This document shows, one piece after another, positions 10,813 through 23,654 of a DNA stretch of 64,000 bases (the stretch's first letter is position 1; the number at the start of each line of letters is the position of its first letter). The DNA lies in NCBI RefSeq assembly GCF_001645185.1, contig NZ_LXTQ01000001.1:62001-126000 (forward strand), in the 5' to 3' direction. This DNA comes from Methylobacillus sp. MM3. Lineage in GTDB: Bacteria; Pseudomonadota; Gammaproteobacteria; Burkholderiales; Methylophilaceae. The notes beneath the pieces were generated by a model. That model saw only the letters and a list, made by a program, of their open reading frames with translations. It made no database searches and had not been told where the DNA came from. The translations under genes and the position numbers were made by a program.

Positions 10813-12954
10813 ATGCTGAACCGAATTCTCGTGATCACGGACGACTCCACCGACGCAAGCATCCTTAAAGGAATTCTCGGCGCGGCAAAAGGGGAGCTGT
10901 TCGAAATCAAGTGGGTTCGGCGTCTTTCTACCGGTCTTAAATGTCTGCGCGCGGGTGGCATCGATACCATCGTCGTGGATTTGATGTTGCCGGATAGTCA
11001 GGGAATTTCAACTTTCGATCAATTATTCGCCGCTGCGCGCGATATCCCCATCCTGACGCTGAATACAGGGTACAAGGGGAAGGCGCTGGCGGCAGAAGCC
11101 ATGCGGCGTGGCGCGCAAGGTTCATTGACGAAAGGATATTTCGTCAGCAATCTTGTGCCGCAAGTATTGCGGAACATCATCCAGCGCAAGGCGATTGAAG
11201 AATCGTTATTCAAGGAGAGGGCAAGGGCCGAAATAGCGCTCAACTCGATAGGCGATGCCGTGATTTGTACCGATACTTTCGGCAATGTCGACTATCTGAA
11301 CATCGCGGCAGAAAACATGACCGGATGGTCGAGGGCGGAGGCTAACGGACTCCCGATTGGCAGAGTGTTCCAGATCATCAATGGCGCTACGCGCGAGCAA
11401 GAGCAAAACCCGGTCGATCTGGTGCTTAAACACGACAAACCCAAGGCGCTTGATGCGGGTATGGTGCTGATTCGACGGGATGGCATCGAAGTCGTCATCG
11501 AAGATGCCGTTTCTCCTATTCACGATTGGAACGGGAAGCTGACCGGTGCGGTGATTGTGTTTCACGATGCCACCCAGGCCGTCTCGATGAGCAAGAAATT
11601 AGCCCATCTGGCGCATCACGACTTTTTGACCGATTTGCCGAATCGCCTCTTGCTGAATGACCGCATCACGCAGGCGATTACATTGGCGCAGCGCGGCGGT
11701 ACGCAACTTGCCGTGTTGTTCCTCGATCTGGACAAGTTCAAGCACATCAATGACTCGCTGGGCCACGAGGCCGGCGACAAGCTATTACAATCGGTGACCC
11801 GGCGCCTGAGCGCTTGTGTACGGAACTCCGATACTGTCAGTCGACAAGGCGGCGACGAATTCGTCATATTGCTGACAGGCGGCAAATATGGCGAGGAGGC
11901 TGCGTTGACTGCCGACAAGATACTCGCCGAATTGGCTTTGCCGCATCATGTGGACAAGCACGAATTGCATATCACCGCCAGCATCGGTATCAGTGTTTAT
12001 CCCGAGGACGGACAGAATGCGGAAACGCTGATCAAGAATGCGGATACGGCGATGTATCACGCCAAGGAAAAAGGGCGCAACAACTTCCAGTTCTTTAGCA
12101 GCGAGATGAATACGCGTGCCGTCGCGCGGCAAATCATCGAAGCCCATTTGCGGTTTGCACTGGAAAAGGGAGAGTTTCTCCTGCATTACCAGCCCAAGGT
12201 CAACCTGGATACTGCCATGATTACCGGCGCCGAAGCCTTGTTGCGCTGGAAGCACTCGGAGTGGGGCATGATCCCTCCCGAAAAATTCGTGTCGATTGCG
12301 GAGGATTGCGGCTTGATCGTGCCGATTGGCCGTTGGGTTTTGCGTGAGGCCTGCACGCAAGCCAAGCAGTGGCTGGACGCAGGATTGATGTCCGGATCCA
12401 TTGCCGTCAATATTTCCGCGCTGGAATTCCGGAAAGCCAATTTTGTCGAGGGAGTACGCGACATCCTGAGCGACACCGGATTGGGGGCGGACTCCTTGCA
12501 ACTGGAAATCACTGAAAGCGTCTTGATGCGCGATGCCGAATCCAGTACCTCGATACTTCAGGATCTCAAGAAAATAGGCGTAAGGTTGGCGGTGGACGAT
12601 TTTGGAACCGGCTATTCCAGCCTGGGTTATCTGCAACGATTTCCGATCGATGCCCTGAAGATAGATCGGTCATTCGTGCATGACATTGGTTCGGCTGCCC
12701 ACGACGGACTTATCGTCGGCGCAGTGATAGGCATGGGGAACAACCTTCATCTGCAGGTGGTGGCGGAGGGTGTGGAAAACCAAGAGCAACTGGCATTTCT
12801 GCGAGGGGCGCATTGTGACGAGGGGCAGGGTTATGTTTTCAGCCGCCCGCTTGTCGCATCGCAGTTTGCCAAGCTGCTGGCAGCCGATGCGCCCGAAAGA
12901 CTTTTGCAATCGACCGCAAGATCGACGATCGGGAACTCTTCCTTAAGTGCCTGA
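10813..12954 (+). CDS. Receiver-PAS-GGDEF-EAL cyclic-di-GMP signalling protein
   Basis: Four-domain regulator of cyclic-di-GMP. From the ATG at 10813 (GGAG ten bases upstream) it is 713 aa. Domains: N-terminal receiver (~1-115; phosphoacceptor region TIVVDLMLPDSQG, Asp near residue 53), PAS (~135-250; GDAVICTDTFGNVDYLN), GGDEF (~270-430) with an active-looking RQGGDEF and an upstream RNSD inhibitory-site motif, and EAL (~445-700). The EAL part has EALLRWKH, EITES, DDFGTGYSSL, KIDRSFV and the QVVAEGVENQEQ Glu, so phosphodiesterase residues are also present. Both activities may therefore be possible. No partner kinase is adjacent. In-frame upstream starts (from 10762) are less likely. Confidence 0.9.
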   Translation: MLNRILVITDDSTDASILKGILGAAKGELFEIKWVRRLSTGLKCLRAGGIDTIVVDLMLPDSQGISTFDQLFAAARDIPILTLNTGYKGKALAAEAMRRGAQGSLTKGYFVSNLVPQVLRNIIQRKAIEESLFKERARAEIALNSIGDAVICTDTFGNVDYLNIAAENMTGWSRAEANGLPIGRVFQIINGATREQEQNPVDLVLKHDKPKALDAGMVLIRRDGIEVVIEDAVSPIHDWNGKLTGAVIVFHDATQAVSMSKKLAHLAHHDFLTDLPNRLLLNDRITQAITLAQRGGTQLAVLFLDLDKFKHINDSLGHEAGDKLLQSVTRRLSACVRNSDTVSRQGGDEFVILLTGGKYGEEAALTADKILAELALPHHVDKHELHITASIGISVYPEDGQNAETLIKNADTAMYHAKEKGRNNFQFFSSEMNTRAVARQIIEAHLRFALEKGEFLLHYQPKVNLDTAMITGAEALLRWKHSEWGMIPPEKFVSIAEDCGLIVPIGRWVLREACTQAKQWLDAGLMSGSIAVNISALEFRKANFVEGVRDILSDTGLGADSLQLEITESVLMRDAESSTSILQDLKKIGVRLAVDDFGTGYSSLGYLQRFPIDALKIDRSFVHDIGSAAHDGLIVGAVIGMGNNLHLQVVAEGVENQEQLAFLRGAHCDEGQGYVFSRPLVASQFAKLLAADAPERLLQSTARSTIGNSSLSA

Positions 12955-18008: not shown

Positions 18009-18631
18009 TTTTATCGTCCTTGGGTCGCTGACTGTTTCCGGCTCATTTGTTGCGCAGCATTGAATTGCCGTGCCCAGTCATCCAGTTAGCGATCCAATCC
18101 CCAGATGTCCCACAGCGTTATCCACAGAAAATGTGGAGTAGGGAAGCAGATTATCTTTTTCTCGACTACTTAGCTGTAGCGATGGGTAGATAGCCTTTTC
18201 CTCACTTTTAGTTTTTGGTGAATCGCTCCGCATGTACATATCAATTTGATTTTATTTCGATTGAAAACCTATCAGTTCAGATAGGTTTCATGCCTCAGAC
18301 GCCTCCATAGAATCGCACCTATAAGATGTAAATAAATGGTAAGTGAAAAAGCTCACGCAGTATTGGAGTGAGTGTAATAAGCAGCCTTGTAGTGTTTTCA
18401 CGCTTGCAACGGCAAATAAAATAAAAAGCCTTCAATAATAATCACGAATAATTGGGTGAAGAATGCCGTATTCGGAGGGGTGGTTCTGGAGTGGGGAAAG
18501 TTGTACGGGCCAAGTGTGGTCAGGTGCAACATTGTTTATTTTCGGGCTGCGTGACACATGCGGCAACGCGCCGCTTCTTGCAACGGGCTGCTTTAAGAAA
18601 TTCCGAATGCATTCCAGCATTGGGCTTCGAA
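18009..18631 (+). other. Gene-free AT-rich interval opening the accessory island
   Basis: No convincing gene. It contains the left 101-bp direct repeat (18038-18138), then falls sharply in GC. A perfect 9-bp hairpin (AAACCTATC 18265-18273 / GATAGGTTT 18280-18288) lacks a following T-run and so does not look like a terminator. An open frame leading into the exporter from 18452 shows no ribosome site and is Cys/Arg rich, unlike a real N-terminus. Confidence 0.5.
18038..18138 (+). repeat. Left 101-bp direct repeat bounding the island
   Basis: Matches 23554-23654 over 101 bp without gaps, with about 15 mismatches by eye. The last 46 bp are identical. It includes a consensus DnaA-box-like TTATCCACA (18118-18126), and a short palindrome TCCACA-GAAAA-TGTGGA at its right end. 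Together with its partner it frames the AT-rich exporter/RAYT region. Confidence 0.85.
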
Positions 18632-20836
18632 ATGAATCGTAAAATCGAAGCCAATGCACTCCTTTGGGTATTGGGCAGTCTCTGTAGGCAGCACAGAATC
18701 CCATTCGATCCAACTTTGTTATTGCAGCAAATTCCGCCGTCATCGCCTCCTCAATACACTGTGGAGGAATTATTGGCTGTGGCGGATAAGCTAGGCCTGC
18801 AAGCCAACGAAGGGAGCATTTCTGCCCTTAGCGGTGCCCCCGATGAAGTTTTTCCATGTTTGATTTTTCTACGGGTACCTGAAAATCCAGCAACTTCTGA
18901 TTCCTCTGAAATTCCTCCTGTATCGTCGAACGAGAGCGGGGATGCCACGAACCCTCAGGAGCAAGTGCAGCCCGCGCTGATTATCCGCTCTCAATCAACT
19001 TTTGCTTATTTCACGCCGCAAAGCGATAAGCCGCAGTCCATCGATCTCAATGAATCTTTAAACTTCTTACCATCTGCGTATGGTTTTTTCGCAAAGCCGG
19101 AAGCGCTCAAGGATGAAGATGTAAAGTCGAGCGCACCCAAAAAGGAATTCGGGTTCTCCTGGTTTATCCCCGAATTGCGCAAGCATCGAAAGATCTGGTA
19201 CGAAATCCTGCTCGCTTCGCTGACCATCCAGATCGTCGGTTTGGCAACGCCGCTTTTCACGCAGGTTATCATCGACAAGGTTATCGTTCACCAGACCAAT
19301 AGCACTCTGATCGTGATCGGCGTTGCCCTCGTCATGTTCATGCTGTTCACTAGCGCCATGACCTGGCTGCGTCAGTATCTCGTGCTGCATACCGGCAATC
19401 GCATGGATGCCGTGCTCGGTACTCAAGTTTTCCGTCATCTGCTGCGCCTGCCCTTGCCTTATTTTGAGCATCGCTCTACCGGCACGCTGGTTGCCCGGCT
19501 GCATGGCGTGGAAACCATACGGGAATTCATTTCCGGCGCGGCCATCACGCTGCTTCTCGATTTCCCGTTCATGCTGATTTTCCTGGCGGTGATGTTCGCC
19601 TACTCGTGGCAACTGTCCTTGATCGCCGTAGGAATCCTGTTGCTGGTCGCGGGCCTCAGCGCGATTGTGACGCCGGTCATTCGGGAGCGTATCAATCAGC
19701 AGTTCATGCTCGGAGCTCGCAACCAGGCATTCCTGACCGAACATATCTCTGGCATGTCCACGGTTAAATCGTTACAAATGGAACCGGACATCGAGCGCAA
19801 GTACAGCGACCTGTTCGTGCAATACCTCGCGGCAGGCTTCAGCACCAAGCAGGTGGGCAACACCTACAACGTAATCGCCAACGGGTTGGAACAGGTGATG
19901 ACGCTCTCCATCCTTATGGTCGGCGCATTGCTGGTCATGCAGAACGATGGTTTTACGGTCGGCATGCTGGTCGCTTTCCAGATGTTCGCCGGACGCATGA
20001 GCCAGCCCATGCTCCGGCTGGTCGGGCTATGGCAGGAATTCCAGCAAGCTAATATTGCCGTCAAGCGCTTGGGCGACATCCTTGACCTACCGCAGGAGCC
20101 GCACACCCTCACGCCCAACCGCGAGAACATCACCCAGGCCAGAATCGATATCGCAGGCATCGGCTTTCGCTATTCCGAAAATCATCCCTGGCTCTACCGC
20201 AATCTCAACATGACGCTCAAGCCCGGCCACCTCACCGTGCTCATGGGCCCTTCCGGTTGCGGCAAGAGTACCTTGGCCAAATTATTGCTAGGCTTTTACC
20301 TCCCGCAAGAAGGCCAAATCAAGCTGGACGGCAAGGATATCCGCTACCTGGCCGCCAACGAACTGCGTTTGATCTACGGCGTCGTGCCGCAGGAGACCGA
20401 GCTCTTCTCCGGCACGATCTACGACAACCTGCTGATGGCCAATCCCCGCGCTGGGTTCGAGGACATCATCACAGCCTGCAAAGCCGCCGAAATCCACGAC
20501 GTCATCGAGCAGCTACCCAAAGGCTACCAAACCGAAATCGGCGAGCGTGGTACCGGACTATCCGGCGGGCAAAAGCAACGGCTCGCGATTTCTCGTGCAC
20601 TGCTTAAGCGCCCAAAAATCCTCATTTTTGATGAAGCGGTATCGAACTTGGATCAGCAGACGGCTGAGCATTTCTCAAAGACAATTAATCGCTTAAAAGG
20701 AAAGGTGACTATGTTATTTATTACTCACCAGATACCGAAAGGGTTGCAAGTAGATGAAGTTTTTAGTTTCGGAAATAAACAGCCCACCAAAATGGAAGTA
20801 GTGGAGGACGGAATAAACTCCGCAAAGATGGATTAA
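18632..20836 (+). CDS. Type I secretion ABC transporter (HlyB/LapB-like, C39-like N-domain)
   Basis: Inner-membrane permease-ATPase of a type I secretion system, 734 aa from ATG 18632. The N-terminal C39-like domain (~1-130: SLCRQHRIPFDPTLLLQQIP, YTVEELLAVADKLGL) resembles the non-proteolytic docking domain of HlyB/LapB exporters, with a long Ser/Glu linker. The six-helix transmembrane domain spans ~165-440. In the nucleotide-binding domain, Walker A GPSGCGKST is near 540, signature LSGGQKQR near 642, Walker B ILIFDEAVSNLD near 662 and H-loop FITHQ near 697. No membrane-fusion or outer-membrane partner is adjacent. From about 20610 onward base composition turns AT-rich, so the gene looks mosaic. 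Confidence 0.85.
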   Translation: MNRKIEANALLWVLGSLCRQHRIPFDPTLLLQQIPPSSPPQYTVEELLAVADKLGLQANEGSISALSGAPDEVFPCLIFLRVPENPATSDSSEIPPVSSNESGDATNPQEQVQPALIIRSQSTFAYFTPQSDKPQSIDLNESLNFLPSAYGFFAKPEALKDEDVKSSAPKKEFGFSWFIPELRKHRKIWYEILLASLTIQIVGLATPLFTQVIIDKVIVHQTNSTLIVIGVALVMFMLFTSAMTWLRQYLVLHTGNRMDAVLGTQVFRHLLRLPLPYFEHRSTGTLVARLHGVETIREFISGAAITLLLDFPFMLIFLAVMFAYSWQLSLIAVGILLLVAGLSAIVTPVIRERINQQFMLGARNQAFLTEHISGMSTVKSLQMEPDIERKYSDLFVQYLAAGFSTKQVGNTYNVIANGLEQVMTLSILMVGALLVMQNDGFTVGMLVAFQMFAGRMSQPMLRLVGLWQEFQQANIAVKRLGDILDLPQEPHTLTPNRENITQARIDIAGIGFRYSENHPWLYRNLNMTLKPGHLTVLMGPSGCGKSTLAKLLLGFYLPQEGQIKLDGKDIRYLAANELRLIYGVVPQETELFSGTIYDNLLMANPRAGFEDIITACKAAEIHDVIEQLPKGYQTEIGERGTGLSGGQKQRLAISRALLKRPKILIFDEAVSNLDQQTAEHFSKTINRLKGKVTMLFITHQIPKGLQVDEVFSFGNKQPTKMEVVEDGINSAKMD

Positions 20837-20916
20837 TTTGCAATTTAGATTGCTATAAAAGGATTATTCAGTCCCTAGATAAGCACACAGTGAACATTCT
20901 ATTCAGAGAGAAAATT

Positions 20917-21384
20917 ATGTTAGATGCTGCATTGTTATTTGTATTTATTTCGATTTGGGCATATGCAATTTTATTAATGGCTATATGTGATGAATTTATA
21001 GAAAAAGAGAAGAGATTTCCTAGAGTAGATGAAATATTTAAAAAAAGTAAATATAAAACCCCATTAGATTTAGTCGAAAAGCTAGCTCTCTTAGGTACTG
21101 TTTTATCCATTGTACTTTTTTTTACGGGAATTGCGCTCAACGAAAGTCTCTCCTTTTCATTTAACCCAAAAAGTAAGCTTTTGCTGATTCCTGTCGTTAT
21201 TGCTTTTTATTTTAGTTATCTTTTCAAAAGGTTAAGCCAATTAAATGCCAATGATAATTTCTCTTCTAATTTATATGTAACCTTAATTACTGGTTATAAG
21301 TATGTGCCCTTACCAAAACGAATTCTTTTAATTGGGTTTGATGTAATTCTCTTGGCTTTAGTAGTGTTGATAATTTATAAATAA
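20917..21384 (+). CDS. Four-helix small membrane protein following the exporter
   Basis: Unrecognised 155-aa protein; start ATG 20917 has AGAGAG upstream, and GTG 20890 is the alternative. Four hydrophobic segments are visible: LDAALLFVFISIWAYAILL, KLALLGTVLSIVLFFTG, LLLIPVVIAFYFSYLF and LIGFDVILLALVVLIIY. A charged loop lies between the first two (EKEKRFPRVDEIFKK). It is strongly AT-rich and Lys/Asn rich compared with the rest of the window, indicating transfer. It lies 80 nt after the exporter stop, in the place where immunity or partner genes of exporters are often found, but that role is only a guess. Confidence 0.7.
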   Translation: MLDAALLFVFISIWAYAILLMAICDEFIEKEKRFPRVDEIFKKSKYKTPLDLVEKLALLGTVLSIVLFFTGIALNESLSFSFNPKSKLLLIPVVIAFYFSYLFKRLSQLNANDNFSSNLYVTLITGYKYVPLPKRILLIGFDVILLALVVLIIYK

Positions 21385-21443
21385 GGGGACGTTAAATGTC
21401 GGTAGGTCAATTAGCAGATGATGGTTTGAGCTGAGCCATGAGA

Positions 21444-21459
21444 ATTATTGAAAGTTGAT
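21444..21459 (+). repeat. RAYT 5' flank motif, copy 1
   Basis: ATTATTGAAAGTTGAT immediately upstream of the transposase start, identical over 16 bp to 23450-23465. The following bases differ slightly (CGAAAGGGGG versus TGAGAGGGAA). Likely part of the mobile element's left end. Confidence 0.6.
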
Positions 21460-21474
21460 CGAAAGGGGGAGCAA

Positions 21475-22224
21475 ATGGCACGTAAGCCAAGATTCAATAT
21501 GCTAGGCAATCCGCAGCACGTTATCCAGCGTGGCAACAACCGCCAAGCGACCTTTTTTGCGGAAGCAGACTACCGTCTCTATCTCGACTGTCTGGCGGAA
21601 GCGGCACGGAAATACGACTGTGCCATCCATGCCTACGTCCTCATGACCAATCACGTCCACCTGCTGGTCACGCCCGGTCAAGTGGAAAGCATCGCGCGCC
21701 TCATGCAATCCGTCGGACGCCGCTATGTGCAATACATCAACTACAGCTACAAACGCAGCGGCACCTTGTGGGAAGGCCGCTACAAAGCCAGTCTCATTCA
21801 AAGCGAACAATACCTTCTCACCTGCATGCGCTATATCGAACTTAATCCGGTACGAGCAGGGATGATGGAGCGTCCGGAAGACTATCAATGGTCGAGCTAT
21901 CGTGCTAACGCTCACGGGACAAAAGATGAACTGCTAACGCCGCACGCGGAATACGAAGCCCTTGGCACAACACCGGAACAACAGCGGGAAGCCTATCGCG
22001 AACTATTCAAGGCCCAACTAAATCCGGAAACACTCACCGAAGTGAGAACGGCCCTCAATGGCGAATTGGTGACGGGTACCGGACGCTTCCAGGCCGAAAT
22101 TGAAACGATGCTCGGCCGACGGGTGCAGGCCGGGAGGCGTGGTCGACCGAGAAAACAGGTTGAAACCACGAATCTATCGCAGGAGAAAAACAAAGAGCAA
22201 CGAACTTTTATGGAGGGGATTTAA
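21475..22224 (+). mobile_element. REP-associated tyrosine transposase (RAYT, Y1/HUH family)
   Basis: A complete 249-aa single-strand transposase of the IS200-related Y1 family. It starts at ATG 21475 after GGGGGAG. Family motifs: MARKPRFNMLGNPQHVIQRG at the N-terminus, the HUH metal-binding pair in TNHVHLLVTP (~60-69), GTLWEGRYKASLI and the Tyr-containing CMRYIELNPVRAGM segment, plus a basic tail (RRGRPRK). The codon use is GC-rich, unlike the AT-rich gene before it. It is bracketed by RAYT-type flanks: a 16-bp motif upstream and GACTCCGACCCC just after the stop, whose inverted copy is at 23404-23418. Inserted between the exporter and the displaced exporter 3' end. Confidence 0.92.
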
Positions 22225-22226
22225 AT

Positions 22227-22241
22227 GACTCCGACCCCATT
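22227..22241 (+). repeat. REP-like element, right flank of RAYT
   Basis: GACTCCGACCCCATT, three bases after the transposase stop. Its exact 15-bp inverted copy is at 23404-23418. Sequences of the GGGGTCxGAGT type commonly accompany this transposase family. Confidence 0.7.
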
Positions 22242-22249
22242 CACTCCTG

Positions 22250-22381
22250 CTTAAAGGAAAAGTCACCATGCTATTTATCACGCATCAGATTCCAAATGGT
22301 TTGCAGGTTGATGAGGTGTTATCACTGTCACAAAAAGCAAATCAAATTAGCGAATCGATGAGCTTCGAGAGTATTAATTAG
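22250..22381 (+). pseudogene. Displaced 3' end of a second type I secretion ABC transporter
   Basis: An open stretch of 43 codons encoding LKGKVTMLFITHQIPNGLQ and onward to a TAG. The first 23 residues match the C-terminus of the intact exporter (residues from ~689) at 21 positions by eye, and the tail then diverges. Walker A, signature and Walker B are missing, so it cannot be a functional ATPase. It begins nine bases after the REP-like flank of the transposase. DNA identity to the intact copy is well below 100 percent, so it is a diverged paralogue and not a recent duplication. Confidence 0.85.
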
Positions 22382-22391
22382 GGGTTCGTTA

Positions 22392-22910
22392 ATGAATAAC
22401 AAACATAAATATATTGCTTGGTTAACTCTAGTCTACATACTCATTGTTTGGGTATTTAGTTGGACAGAAATATCAAGTCGGGATCTTCCTTTATTTACAT
22501 TGTTGGGAAAAAGTATCGCAAGCATTTCTCAACTATCCGCCTCTGCAAGTAACACAAATAAAGCCCTTTTCGAACTTGTGTTGGCTTGGATGATGAGTTT
22601 TATCATTGCCTATTTCTTCTTCAAAAACGCTAATTGGGAAGTTATCAAGCAAAAGTCTTTTCAATCTGGAGGGCATATAAAGACAGCATTGAAATCATTT
22701 TCCTGTGCTGTTGTTTTGCTTCTAGTCGTTCTAATTCCTCATACCCCTTCACCCACTACAAGGTTCGGACGAGTATTGCTGACAATTTTGCAAAATGACC
22801 ATGCATATATATGGGGAGTTGGAATCCTCTTTACTAGTCTTCTGGCTTGGATGGGAATCATTATTGGTTTTTATCTGCTGACAACTACCTTATCTACCCG
22901 CGGAGAATAA
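22392..22910 (+). CDS. Second four-helix small membrane protein
   Basis: Unrecognised 172-aa protein starting at ATG 22392, ten bases after the displaced exporter 3' end (GGGGTTCGTTA upstream). Four hydrophobic segments: IAWLTLVYILIVWVFSW, LFELVLAWMMSFIIAYFFF, CAVVLLLVVLIP and IWGVGILFTSLLAWMGIIIGF. AT-rich like its counterpart at 20917, with which it shares layout but no obvious sequence similarity. The order exporter 3' end then four-helix protein therefore occurs twice in the island. Confidence 0.7.
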   Translation: MNNKHKYIAWLTLVYILIVWVFSWTEISSRDLPLFTLLGKSIASISQLSASASNTNKALFELVLAWMMSFIIAYFFFKNANWEVIKQKSFQSGGHIKTALKSFSCAVVLLLVVLIPHTPSPTTRFGRVLLTILQNDHAYIWGVGILFTSLLAWMGIIIGFYLLTTTLSTRGE

Positions 22911-22913
22911 AAA

Positions 22914-22994
22914 ATGAGCGAAGAAAATTCTGTTGGTTTGTTAAGTTTTACTTCCTTTATTGAAGGGGCCTCCTCTGCGGCTGGTCTTCTGTGA
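22914..22994 (+). CDS. Possible 26-residue peptide gene
   Basis: ATG three bases after the stop of the membrane protein, with CGGAGAATAAAA as ribosome site. It encodes MSEENSVGLLSFTSFIEGAS then SAAGLL and a TGA. The good ribosome site and tight spacing argue for translation. It may be a genuine small peptide, or the first codons of a longer gene cut by the downstream rearrangement. No double-glycine leader motif is seen. Confidence 0.35.
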   Translation: MSEENSVGLLSFTSFIEGASSAAGLL

Positions 22995-23205: not shown

Positions 23206-23255
23206 ATGATGTTTTTAATATCAGGATCACTTGGGCACGAGCTTATAGTTACTGC

Positions 23256-23430
23256 AATGATCGAACGAGTAATATTTCTAAGTAGAATCGCAGCTGAAAA
23301 TACGCCGGGCTGGTCTAATTGGGCGGTTATCAGTATCAATGACCCGTTCGCGGCTTTGGGTGACGCGCGTTTAATGCCTGGCTGGCATGCCATTCAGGAA
23401 ATAAATGGGGTCGGAGTCGGTTTTTTTTAA
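23256..23430 (+). pseudogene. 5' fragment of a cytosolic phosphatase-like hypothetical gene
   Basis: The frame from ATG 23256 reads MIERVIFLSRIAAENTPGWS, then NWAVISINDP and LMPGWHAI. This resembles the N-terminal third of bacterial dual-specificity-phosphatase-like proteins (VLFLSR..AE, ALISI.DP). The matching part stops exactly where the REP-like GGGGTCGGAGTC begins (23407), and the rest of the gene, including the expected Cys-loop, is absent. I call it a truncated gene; the family assignment is tentative. Confidence 0.45.
23404..23418 (-). repeat. REP-like element, inverted copy
   Basis: AATGGGGTCGGAGTC, exact inverse of 22227-22241, followed by a run of eight T. It truncates the phosphatase-like frame. 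Confidence 0.7.
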
Positions 23431-23449
23431 TAAGTTTCTAAGCCGGAGG

Positions 23450-23465
23450 ATTATTGAAAGTTGAT
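23450..23465 (+). repeat. RAYT 5' flank motif, copy 2 (orphan)
   Basis: ATTATTGAAAGTTGAT, identical to 21444-21459 but with no transposase gene behind it. It suggests a decayed or non-autonomous second element. Confidence 0.55.
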
Positions 23466-23553
23466 TGAGAGGGAATAAGGATGATTTTCCTTGGAAAATG
23501 GGCTGACCTCATCATCCGTAATGATGGTAATTGAGTTGAGTACCAACAATGCA

Positions 23554-23654
23554 CCGGCTCATTTGCTATGCAGTACGCATTTGCCTTGATACGTCATCCA
23601 GTTACCGCTCCAATCCCCAGATGTCCCACAGCGTTATCCACAGAAAATGTGGAG
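23554..23654 (+). repeat. Right 101-bp direct repeat bounding the island
   Basis: Partner of 18038-18138, same orientation, same length, with TTATCCACA at 23634-23642. It ends 63 nt before the Sel1-repeat gene. GC content returns to the genomic level immediately after. Confidence 0.85.

Follow-up and report, generated by a model that had tools for sequence, protein, structure and literature searches.

A probable broken type I effector/immunity locus of Methylobacillus sp. MM3, built from two stacked cassettes

Why would a bacterial genome carry the 3′ end of an exporter gene twice, each time followed by a different small membrane protein? The question is raised by a locus of Methylobacillus sp. 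MM3 in contig NZ_LXTQ01000001.1 (positions 62,001 to 126,000; this whole stretch of 64,000 nucleotides is referred to as the window), which encodes a type I secretion ABC exporter, a transposase, a displaced piece of a second exporter, and two four-helix membrane proteins, denoted acc1 and acc2. On balance, this is probably a broken type I secretion effector/immunity locus that consists of two stacked cassettes, in which the immunity-like genes have survived. Its main features are as follows.

18632..20836, plus strand: type I secretion ABC exporter gene, intact frame of 734 aa (open reading frame [ORF], profile matches, seven-member alignment)
20513..20836, plus strand: AT-shifted portion at the exporter's 3′ end, from codon 628 through the stop, which may be foreign to the core (change-point in third-position GC)
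20917..21384, plus strand: acc1, four-helix membrane protein of 155 aa, putative immunity protein (ORF, hydropathy)
21396..21434, plus strand: 12-codon frame directly behind acc1, putative stub of a lost effector (position)
21448..22224, plus strand: REP (repetitive extragenic palindromic)-associated tyrosine transposase (RAYT), intact frame (NF047646, Y1_Tnp)
22250..22381, plus strand: orphan exporter tail of 43 codons, beginning at codon 688 (alignment to the exporter)
22392..22910, plus strand: acc2, four-helix membrane protein of 172 aa, putative immunity protein (homologue behind an isolated tail in locus L180)
22914..22994, plus strand: 26-codon frame, putative effector stub (position)

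An earlier note on this DNA had already named the exporter, acc1, the RAYT, the exporter tail, acc2, and the 26-codon frame, each of which is present where it was placed. It missed that each membrane gene is followed by a very short ORF, by position a putative effector stub, and that the RAYT recurs in this architecture.

The exporter matches the ABC_membrane and ABC_tran families of Pfam, so that a membrane domain is fused to the ATPase, and the motifs GPSGCGKST, LSGGQ, and ILIFDEA, read in the alignment, are its Walker A, signature, and Walker B motifs. Its score on the TIGR01846 (type_I_sec_HlyB) model is 568 bits, under the model cut-off of 725.55. The adaptor expected close to a type I exporter is missing: no HlyD match was found within the window, and the sole HlyD match over the cut-off in this genome lies ∼415 kb away, adjoining another ABC gene.

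The displaced piece at 22250-22378 is identical to exporter residues 688 to 716 at 24 of 29 positions (E value of 5e-11). At the nucleotide level, 60 of 87 positions are identical, with 19 of the 27 differences falling at third codon positions. When the whole exporter was searched against its own genome, the orphan tail (80%) was, apart from the exporter gene, the single close match, all others being at 40% or below. Because the residues match, the changes are mainly at third positions, and this search gives no nearer ATPase, the piece is a true, if diverged, exporter tail, neither a chance match nor the end of an unrelated ATPase, the alternative that the earlier note had left to be checked. 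It is about equally near to its neighbor exporter and to the exporter tails of relatives (loci L033 and L066, 85% over 26 residues). By layout, the locus has what appears to be a displaced 3′ end of a delivery gene with its own distinct downstream partner, as in contact-dependent inhibition (CDI) and Rhs systems; the toxin domain of the displaced ends in those systems has no counterpart here, as this piece codes for the terminal part of an ABC ATPase.

The two partner proteins share their layout and are unrelated in sequence: the alignment score of acc1 and acc2 is 32, equal to the mean for shuffled sequences, as the earlier note had supposed. Neither protein belongs to any family in Pfam, NCBIfam, or PADLOC, and neither was matched in a plasmid collection. 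For acc1, no convincing homologue was found among 187 genomes of its family, which yielded just weak matches. A homologue of acc2 is encoded in the locus L180 (blastp E value of 2e-5; z = 10.1 against shuffles); a profile built from these two sequences hit 1 of 369 genomes, its own, and the genome of L180 presumably lies outside those 369. A four-helix protein of 191 aa in the locus L089, which by eye had seemed related to acc2, was rejected with a z of about 1; against the L180 protein its z is 3.3. Single-sequence AlphaFold2 models of the two window proteins had mean pLDDT values of 55.5 and 60.8, too low for a fold search.

Orphan exporter tails recur elsewhere, as the earlier note had expected. 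The relatives' loci analyzed here are the best 80 of 556 confirmed in one scan; the exporter stop lies within the examined DNA in 76 of them, and at least 2 kb behind the exporter is available in 61. A second exporter tail was found in two of the 80, L100 and L104. A 38-residue exporter-tail query was also run against 399 genomes of the order, own genome included, and matched 61 of them; the matches examined were those in frames shorter than 130 codons plus two loci of genome G381, and four matches in frames of 350 to 460 codons were left out. Taken together, extra tails are found in Methylomonas fluvii (L104), in a Nitrosomonadales metagenome-assembled genome (MAG), and in a single-contig genome of another family (L178), and L180, L181, L185, and L186 carry tails in examined stretches where no exporter match was seen. 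Two contigs that begin in an exporter tail (L182 and L183) are suggestive only, because contig ends can mislead. L184 was ruled out as a displaced tail, being an exporter in pieces, and L188, which also came from the tail search, is a full exporter. Two further exporters (L179:3880-4290 and L187:1095-1535) lack ∼565 to 600 codons and keep the start, the tail, and the accessory gene that follows; the L187 exporter retains residues 5 to 39 and 604 to 717, and that of L179 retains residues 632 onward and, as read by eye, the first residues.

The clearest relative is L178, in which an exporter is followed by a gene for a 141-aa protein, a 40-codon frame, a RAYT, a REP-like end, an orphan tail, and a gene for a 228-aa protein, the same order as in the window. 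The frame that comes next stays open to the end of the stretch, for at least 2308 aa, and has 22 stretches of RTX repeats as well as a Peptidase_M23 domain. Enzymes of this type attack the cell walls of bacteria, and the domain fits an antibacterial role predicted for this effector. Neither accessory protein of L178 has a Pfam family. Its orphan tail is identical to its own exporter tail at 132 of 140 nucleotides, and all 8 differences are at third codon positions. The orphan tails of the two loci begin at the homologous codon of the sequence LKGKVTM (688 in the window, 783 in the longer frame of L178), with the GACCCC of the RAYT's right REP-like end 11 and 19 nucleotides, respectively, ahead of them. 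The common order does not stem from a recent shared event, because the exporters share just 69% and the RAYTs, which have different REP-like ends, 52%; the boundary may go back to an old shared event or to two events.

Two lineages provide pairs of filled and empty sites. The exporters of L104 and of L108 (Methylomonas sp. LW13) are 92% identical; L104 carries an insertion of 1060 bp behind the exporter, after which its orphan tail and downstream DNA match the exporter end and downstream DNA of L108 over 1457 bp at 87%. Within this insertion, on the opposite strand (L104:12357-13028, minus), is a gene for a 223-aa protein with no Pfam match, at a guess a glycosyltransferase. In the other pair, HlyD is the next gene in L105, 158 bp behind the exporter, and L100 has the exporter, a broken RTX substrate region, the orphan tail, and HlyD in pieces. 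In L180, an isolated exporter tail is overlapped by the acc2 homologue, a four-helix protein of 211 aa whose gene starts inside the tail. No exporter match was found in this 13-kb stretch, and the genome has no other match to the tail query. Further small membrane genes follow in a row, one of them homologous to an accessory protein of the locus L130 (33.6% over 152 residues, E value of 1e-27); this is what immunity genes kept in a row would look like.

The genes behind the relatives' exporters are far from fixed. They are highly polymorphic, encoding small multi-helix or lipoprotein-like proteins, then RTX or lipase-like substrates, and sometimes HlyD. Frames of at least 60 codons that start 4 nucleotides inside the exporter stop were seen in 21 of 76 loci, although not all such frames need be genes. 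The earlier note had further expected that tails and partner genes would vary as linked pairs, and this part of its proposal did not hold. In L066, L067, L081, and L089, the exporters are 86 to 91% identical until ∼90 bp past the stop, with near-identical tails, and the first genes behind them have no detectable similarity (best E value of 0.71), followed again by related RAYTs; the exchange point is therefore often at or after the stop codon. The L113 exporter is nearest to that of L112 among these loci (87% at the DNA level), whereas the counterpart of its first cassette is in L125 and that of its second accessory gene in L081. The cassettes move independently of exporter tails. Homology in close pairs ends sharply at the exporter stop, which is weak evidence by itself because it often ends near the exporter start as well.

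Two side observations concern the loci of relatives. Two exporters of one MAG (L141 and L145) are 93% identical; one is followed by an accessory gene and a substrate, the other directly by HlyD. L072:12125-22085 is an array of lipoprotein and RTX/lipase substrate pairs with the common junction ATGGAGGATGGCGGCATGA, at which one gene stops (WRMAA) and the following one begins (MEDGGMK). The junction TGGAGGATGGCGGCATGA, seen in L072 and others, was considered as a feature of the window and rejected: it belongs to arrays and is absent from the window locus, the sole window match, with three mismatches allowed, being at 12299.

The exporter of the window is itself a mosaic in composition. Its third-position GC falls from 0.80 to 0.48 at a change-point at codon 628, so that the last ∼107 codons differ from the rest, and the GC content of 20601-20836 is 39.8%, compared to 56.9% in the exporter core. 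Across 75 loci, window included, third-position GC in the last 40 codons is lower than in the core by 0.117, and in a control stretch by 0.011. The ∼107 codons of shifted composition are close to the last ∼100 that the earlier note had proposed as a recombination anchor.

RAYT matches are found downstream of the exporter in 12 of 80 loci and upstream in none. Counted as pieces, there are 14 in 488,481 bp downstream versus 0 in 580,644 bp upstream; at a distance of up to 4 kb, 12 loci have one downstream (242,077 bp) and none has one upstream (267,857 bp), with 0.28 expected at genome density. This expectation, based on 47 pieces in 40.1 Mb, is too high rather than too low, since the 12 genomes used for it were selected for carrying a RAYT behind an exporter. 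In all 12 loci the RAYT is on the exporter's strand. Frames cut by the RAYT in three relatives (L067, L081, and L113) are homologous to the N termini of long effector frames, which for the most part continue past the contig end; in these relatives, the comparison shows, a predicted effector has been truncated by the RAYT. The 12-codon frame of the window is too short for homology testing and is placed like the frames in L113 and L067.

These observations suggest the following course of events. The ancestral unit would have comprised an exporter, followed at once by a small and polymorphic immunity gene (which overlaps the exporter stop in some relatives), and then a secreted effector. A newer cassette that brought its own exporter 3′ end would have arrived at the 3′ end of the exporter, displacing the older cassette downstream with the last 43 exporter codons still attached. 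The effector of each cassette would later have been cut down to a stub, on one or more occasions through insertion of a RAYT within or beside it, and the immunity-like membrane genes would have remained open. The two short frames of the window are likely such stubs, and acc1 and acc2, by analogy, putative immunity proteins that may have been kept by selection against attack from relatives. The exporter tail may have been retained because it carries the translation start of the membrane genes. The earlier displaced-cassette proposal survives in its recurring tails and polymorphic downstream genes and fails in the linkage of tail and partner.

Several observations weigh against this scenario. 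Stubs in the window and in L066, L071, L077, L089, L178, and L180 are assigned by position alone, and neither window stub had a homologue (best E value of 0.68) among the six-frame frames of the 80 loci and the long frames of the examined loci. In L076 an accessory gene is itself truncated in front of the RAYT, which shows that these genes do not escape in every case. Some exporters of the family, among them those of L085, L121, L134, and L145, are followed directly by a substrate or HlyD, with no accessory gene. Tail composition tracks downstream GC barely better than the control does (rho of 0.29 versus 0.22), and much of the composition shift may therefore be general tail drift. Finally, because the window has no HlyD match, the locus may simply be decaying.

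Plain decay is a possible, if rather unlikely, explanation of the whole: neighboring or duplicated type I loci would have been fused by deletions at the RAYT or REP sequences, with nothing swapped or purposefully kept. The lack of an HlyD match in the window, with a single one over the cut-off elsewhere in the genome, would agree with it, as would the broken or internally deleted exporters of L184 and L187. Further parts of the window locus are the following.

22227..22241, minus strand: REP-like right end of the RAYT, GACTCCGACCCCATT, forming an inverted pair with 23404-23418
23404..23473, plus strand: REP-like left end, followed by what remains of the 5′ flank of another RAYT (repeat and similarity comparison)
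18038..18138, plus strand: 101-nucleotide direct repeat, left copy (repeat search)
23554..23654, plus strand: 101-nucleotide direct repeat, right copy, 85% (repeat search)

The intact RAYT, one of two in this genome, passes the curated cut-off of NF047646 (81.2 versus 80 bits). Its right end adjoins the gene, and the motif GACTCCGACCCCATT recurs behind the RAYT in L077 and L113. The matching left end was not found beside the gene; a second left end is at 23404, followed at 23446-23473 by 28 nucleotides that are 89% like 21440-21467. This remnant and the 74-codon frame at 23206-23430, which lies between the 26-codon frame and the REP-like left end and seems to be a piece of an unrelated gene, suggest deletions. 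The 101-nucleotide repeat, which contains TTATCCACA, brackets the whole locus, and its two copies are the only matches in the genome at an E value of 0.001 or below; it may mark how the island entered or what could delete it. Decay does not readily account for L178, with its same order, same tail boundary, and still-open RTX effector, for the several loci in which the accessory gene is open and the effector next to it truncated, or for the filled and empty sites of L104/L108 and L100/L105.

It is unlikely that the small downstream proteins are secretion helpers or substrate anchors whose diversity follows that of the substrates. They do stand directly between exporter and substrate in many loci, yet they persist with no exporter match nearby (L180) and beside stub substrates. 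Moreover, 7 of the 10 proteins tested, including the one of the L104 insertion, had no Pfam family at an E value of 0.1 or below, and the rest were sub-threshold, so the downstream proteins look like many unrelated families.

The stacked-cassette interpretation has a stronger form, which we consider improbable: the exporter 3′ end would be a landing and launching site, and units of tail, immunity gene, (cut) effector, and RAYT would be moved between exporters by the RAYT at a fixed codon, whereby cells would accumulate immunity genes against the type I toxins of rivals while disarming these toxins. A quite improbable alternative to the preferred reading has the RAYT move a unit that runs from exporter codon 688 through the immunity gene to its own right REP and inserts at codon 688 of other exporters, thereby displacing tails. 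The same starting codon at 11 and 19 nucleotides behind GACCCC in two loci whose RAYTs are only 52% identical, the enrichment of RAYTs behind exporters, and the resemblance, by eye, of the exporter sequence there (CTTAAAGG, CTCAAGGG) to the left end TTAAAGG of the L178 RAYT speak for such mobility. It is countered by the facts that the codon-688 boundary is seen in just two loci, that the tails of L104 and L100 begin ∼5 to 7 codons later in loci with no RAYT match and other tails at query residues 604 to 680, that in L183, found in a separate search, RAYT and tail lie on opposite strands, and that published RAYTs, in the portion of the source consulted, are described as lacking typical mobility signs (PMC2817692).

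Among characterized systems, the preferred reading of a broken effector/immunity locus is closest to Cdz of Caulobacter (CdzABCDI), as portrayed in the sections of the paper at hand (PMC5380434): contact-dependent killing there involves a type I exporter, an effector with a type I secretion signal, and a small multi-helix inner-membrane immunity protein. In the same sections, CdzI is the proven immunity protein of such a system and has no homologues (PMC5380434). Cdz forms one ABCDI cluster in these sections (PMC5380434), whereas the window has stacked cassettes, duplicated tails, RAYTs, and lost effectors, and its adaptor was not found. In cdiA-CT/cdiI and rhs-CT orphans, according to the part of the source available (PMC4927057), a new module joins the delivery gene at its 3′ end and the old end is displaced together with its immunity gene; transposase genes lie between, orphan immunity genes are thought to be kept for protection, and the layout is as seen here. 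The displaced piece in those systems is a toxin (PMC4927057, same part), whereas here it is an exporter end that encodes none, the effector being a separate gene. RAYT/REP elements, as described in the excerpts of the RAYT study (PMC2817692), have a Y1 transposase, inverted REP-like ends, and a low copy number per genome; this genome has two RAYTs, the intact one with a right REP-like end beside it and a second left end at 23404. Here, different RAYTs are found repeatedly behind one exporter family and have cut effector genes.

Displaced toxin/immunity cassettes are already known for CDI and Rhs systems; for type I exporters, no description was found in the titles and abstract openings of the open-access matches listed, a weak sort of absence. 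If the proposed reading is true, type I secretion, a very common route, would swap and stockpile cassettes likewise, anchored on the exporter rather than on the toxin gene. Searching behind exporter tails would then yield many unnamed immunity proteins, and RAYTs, whose role is unclear, would gain a recurrent genomic place.

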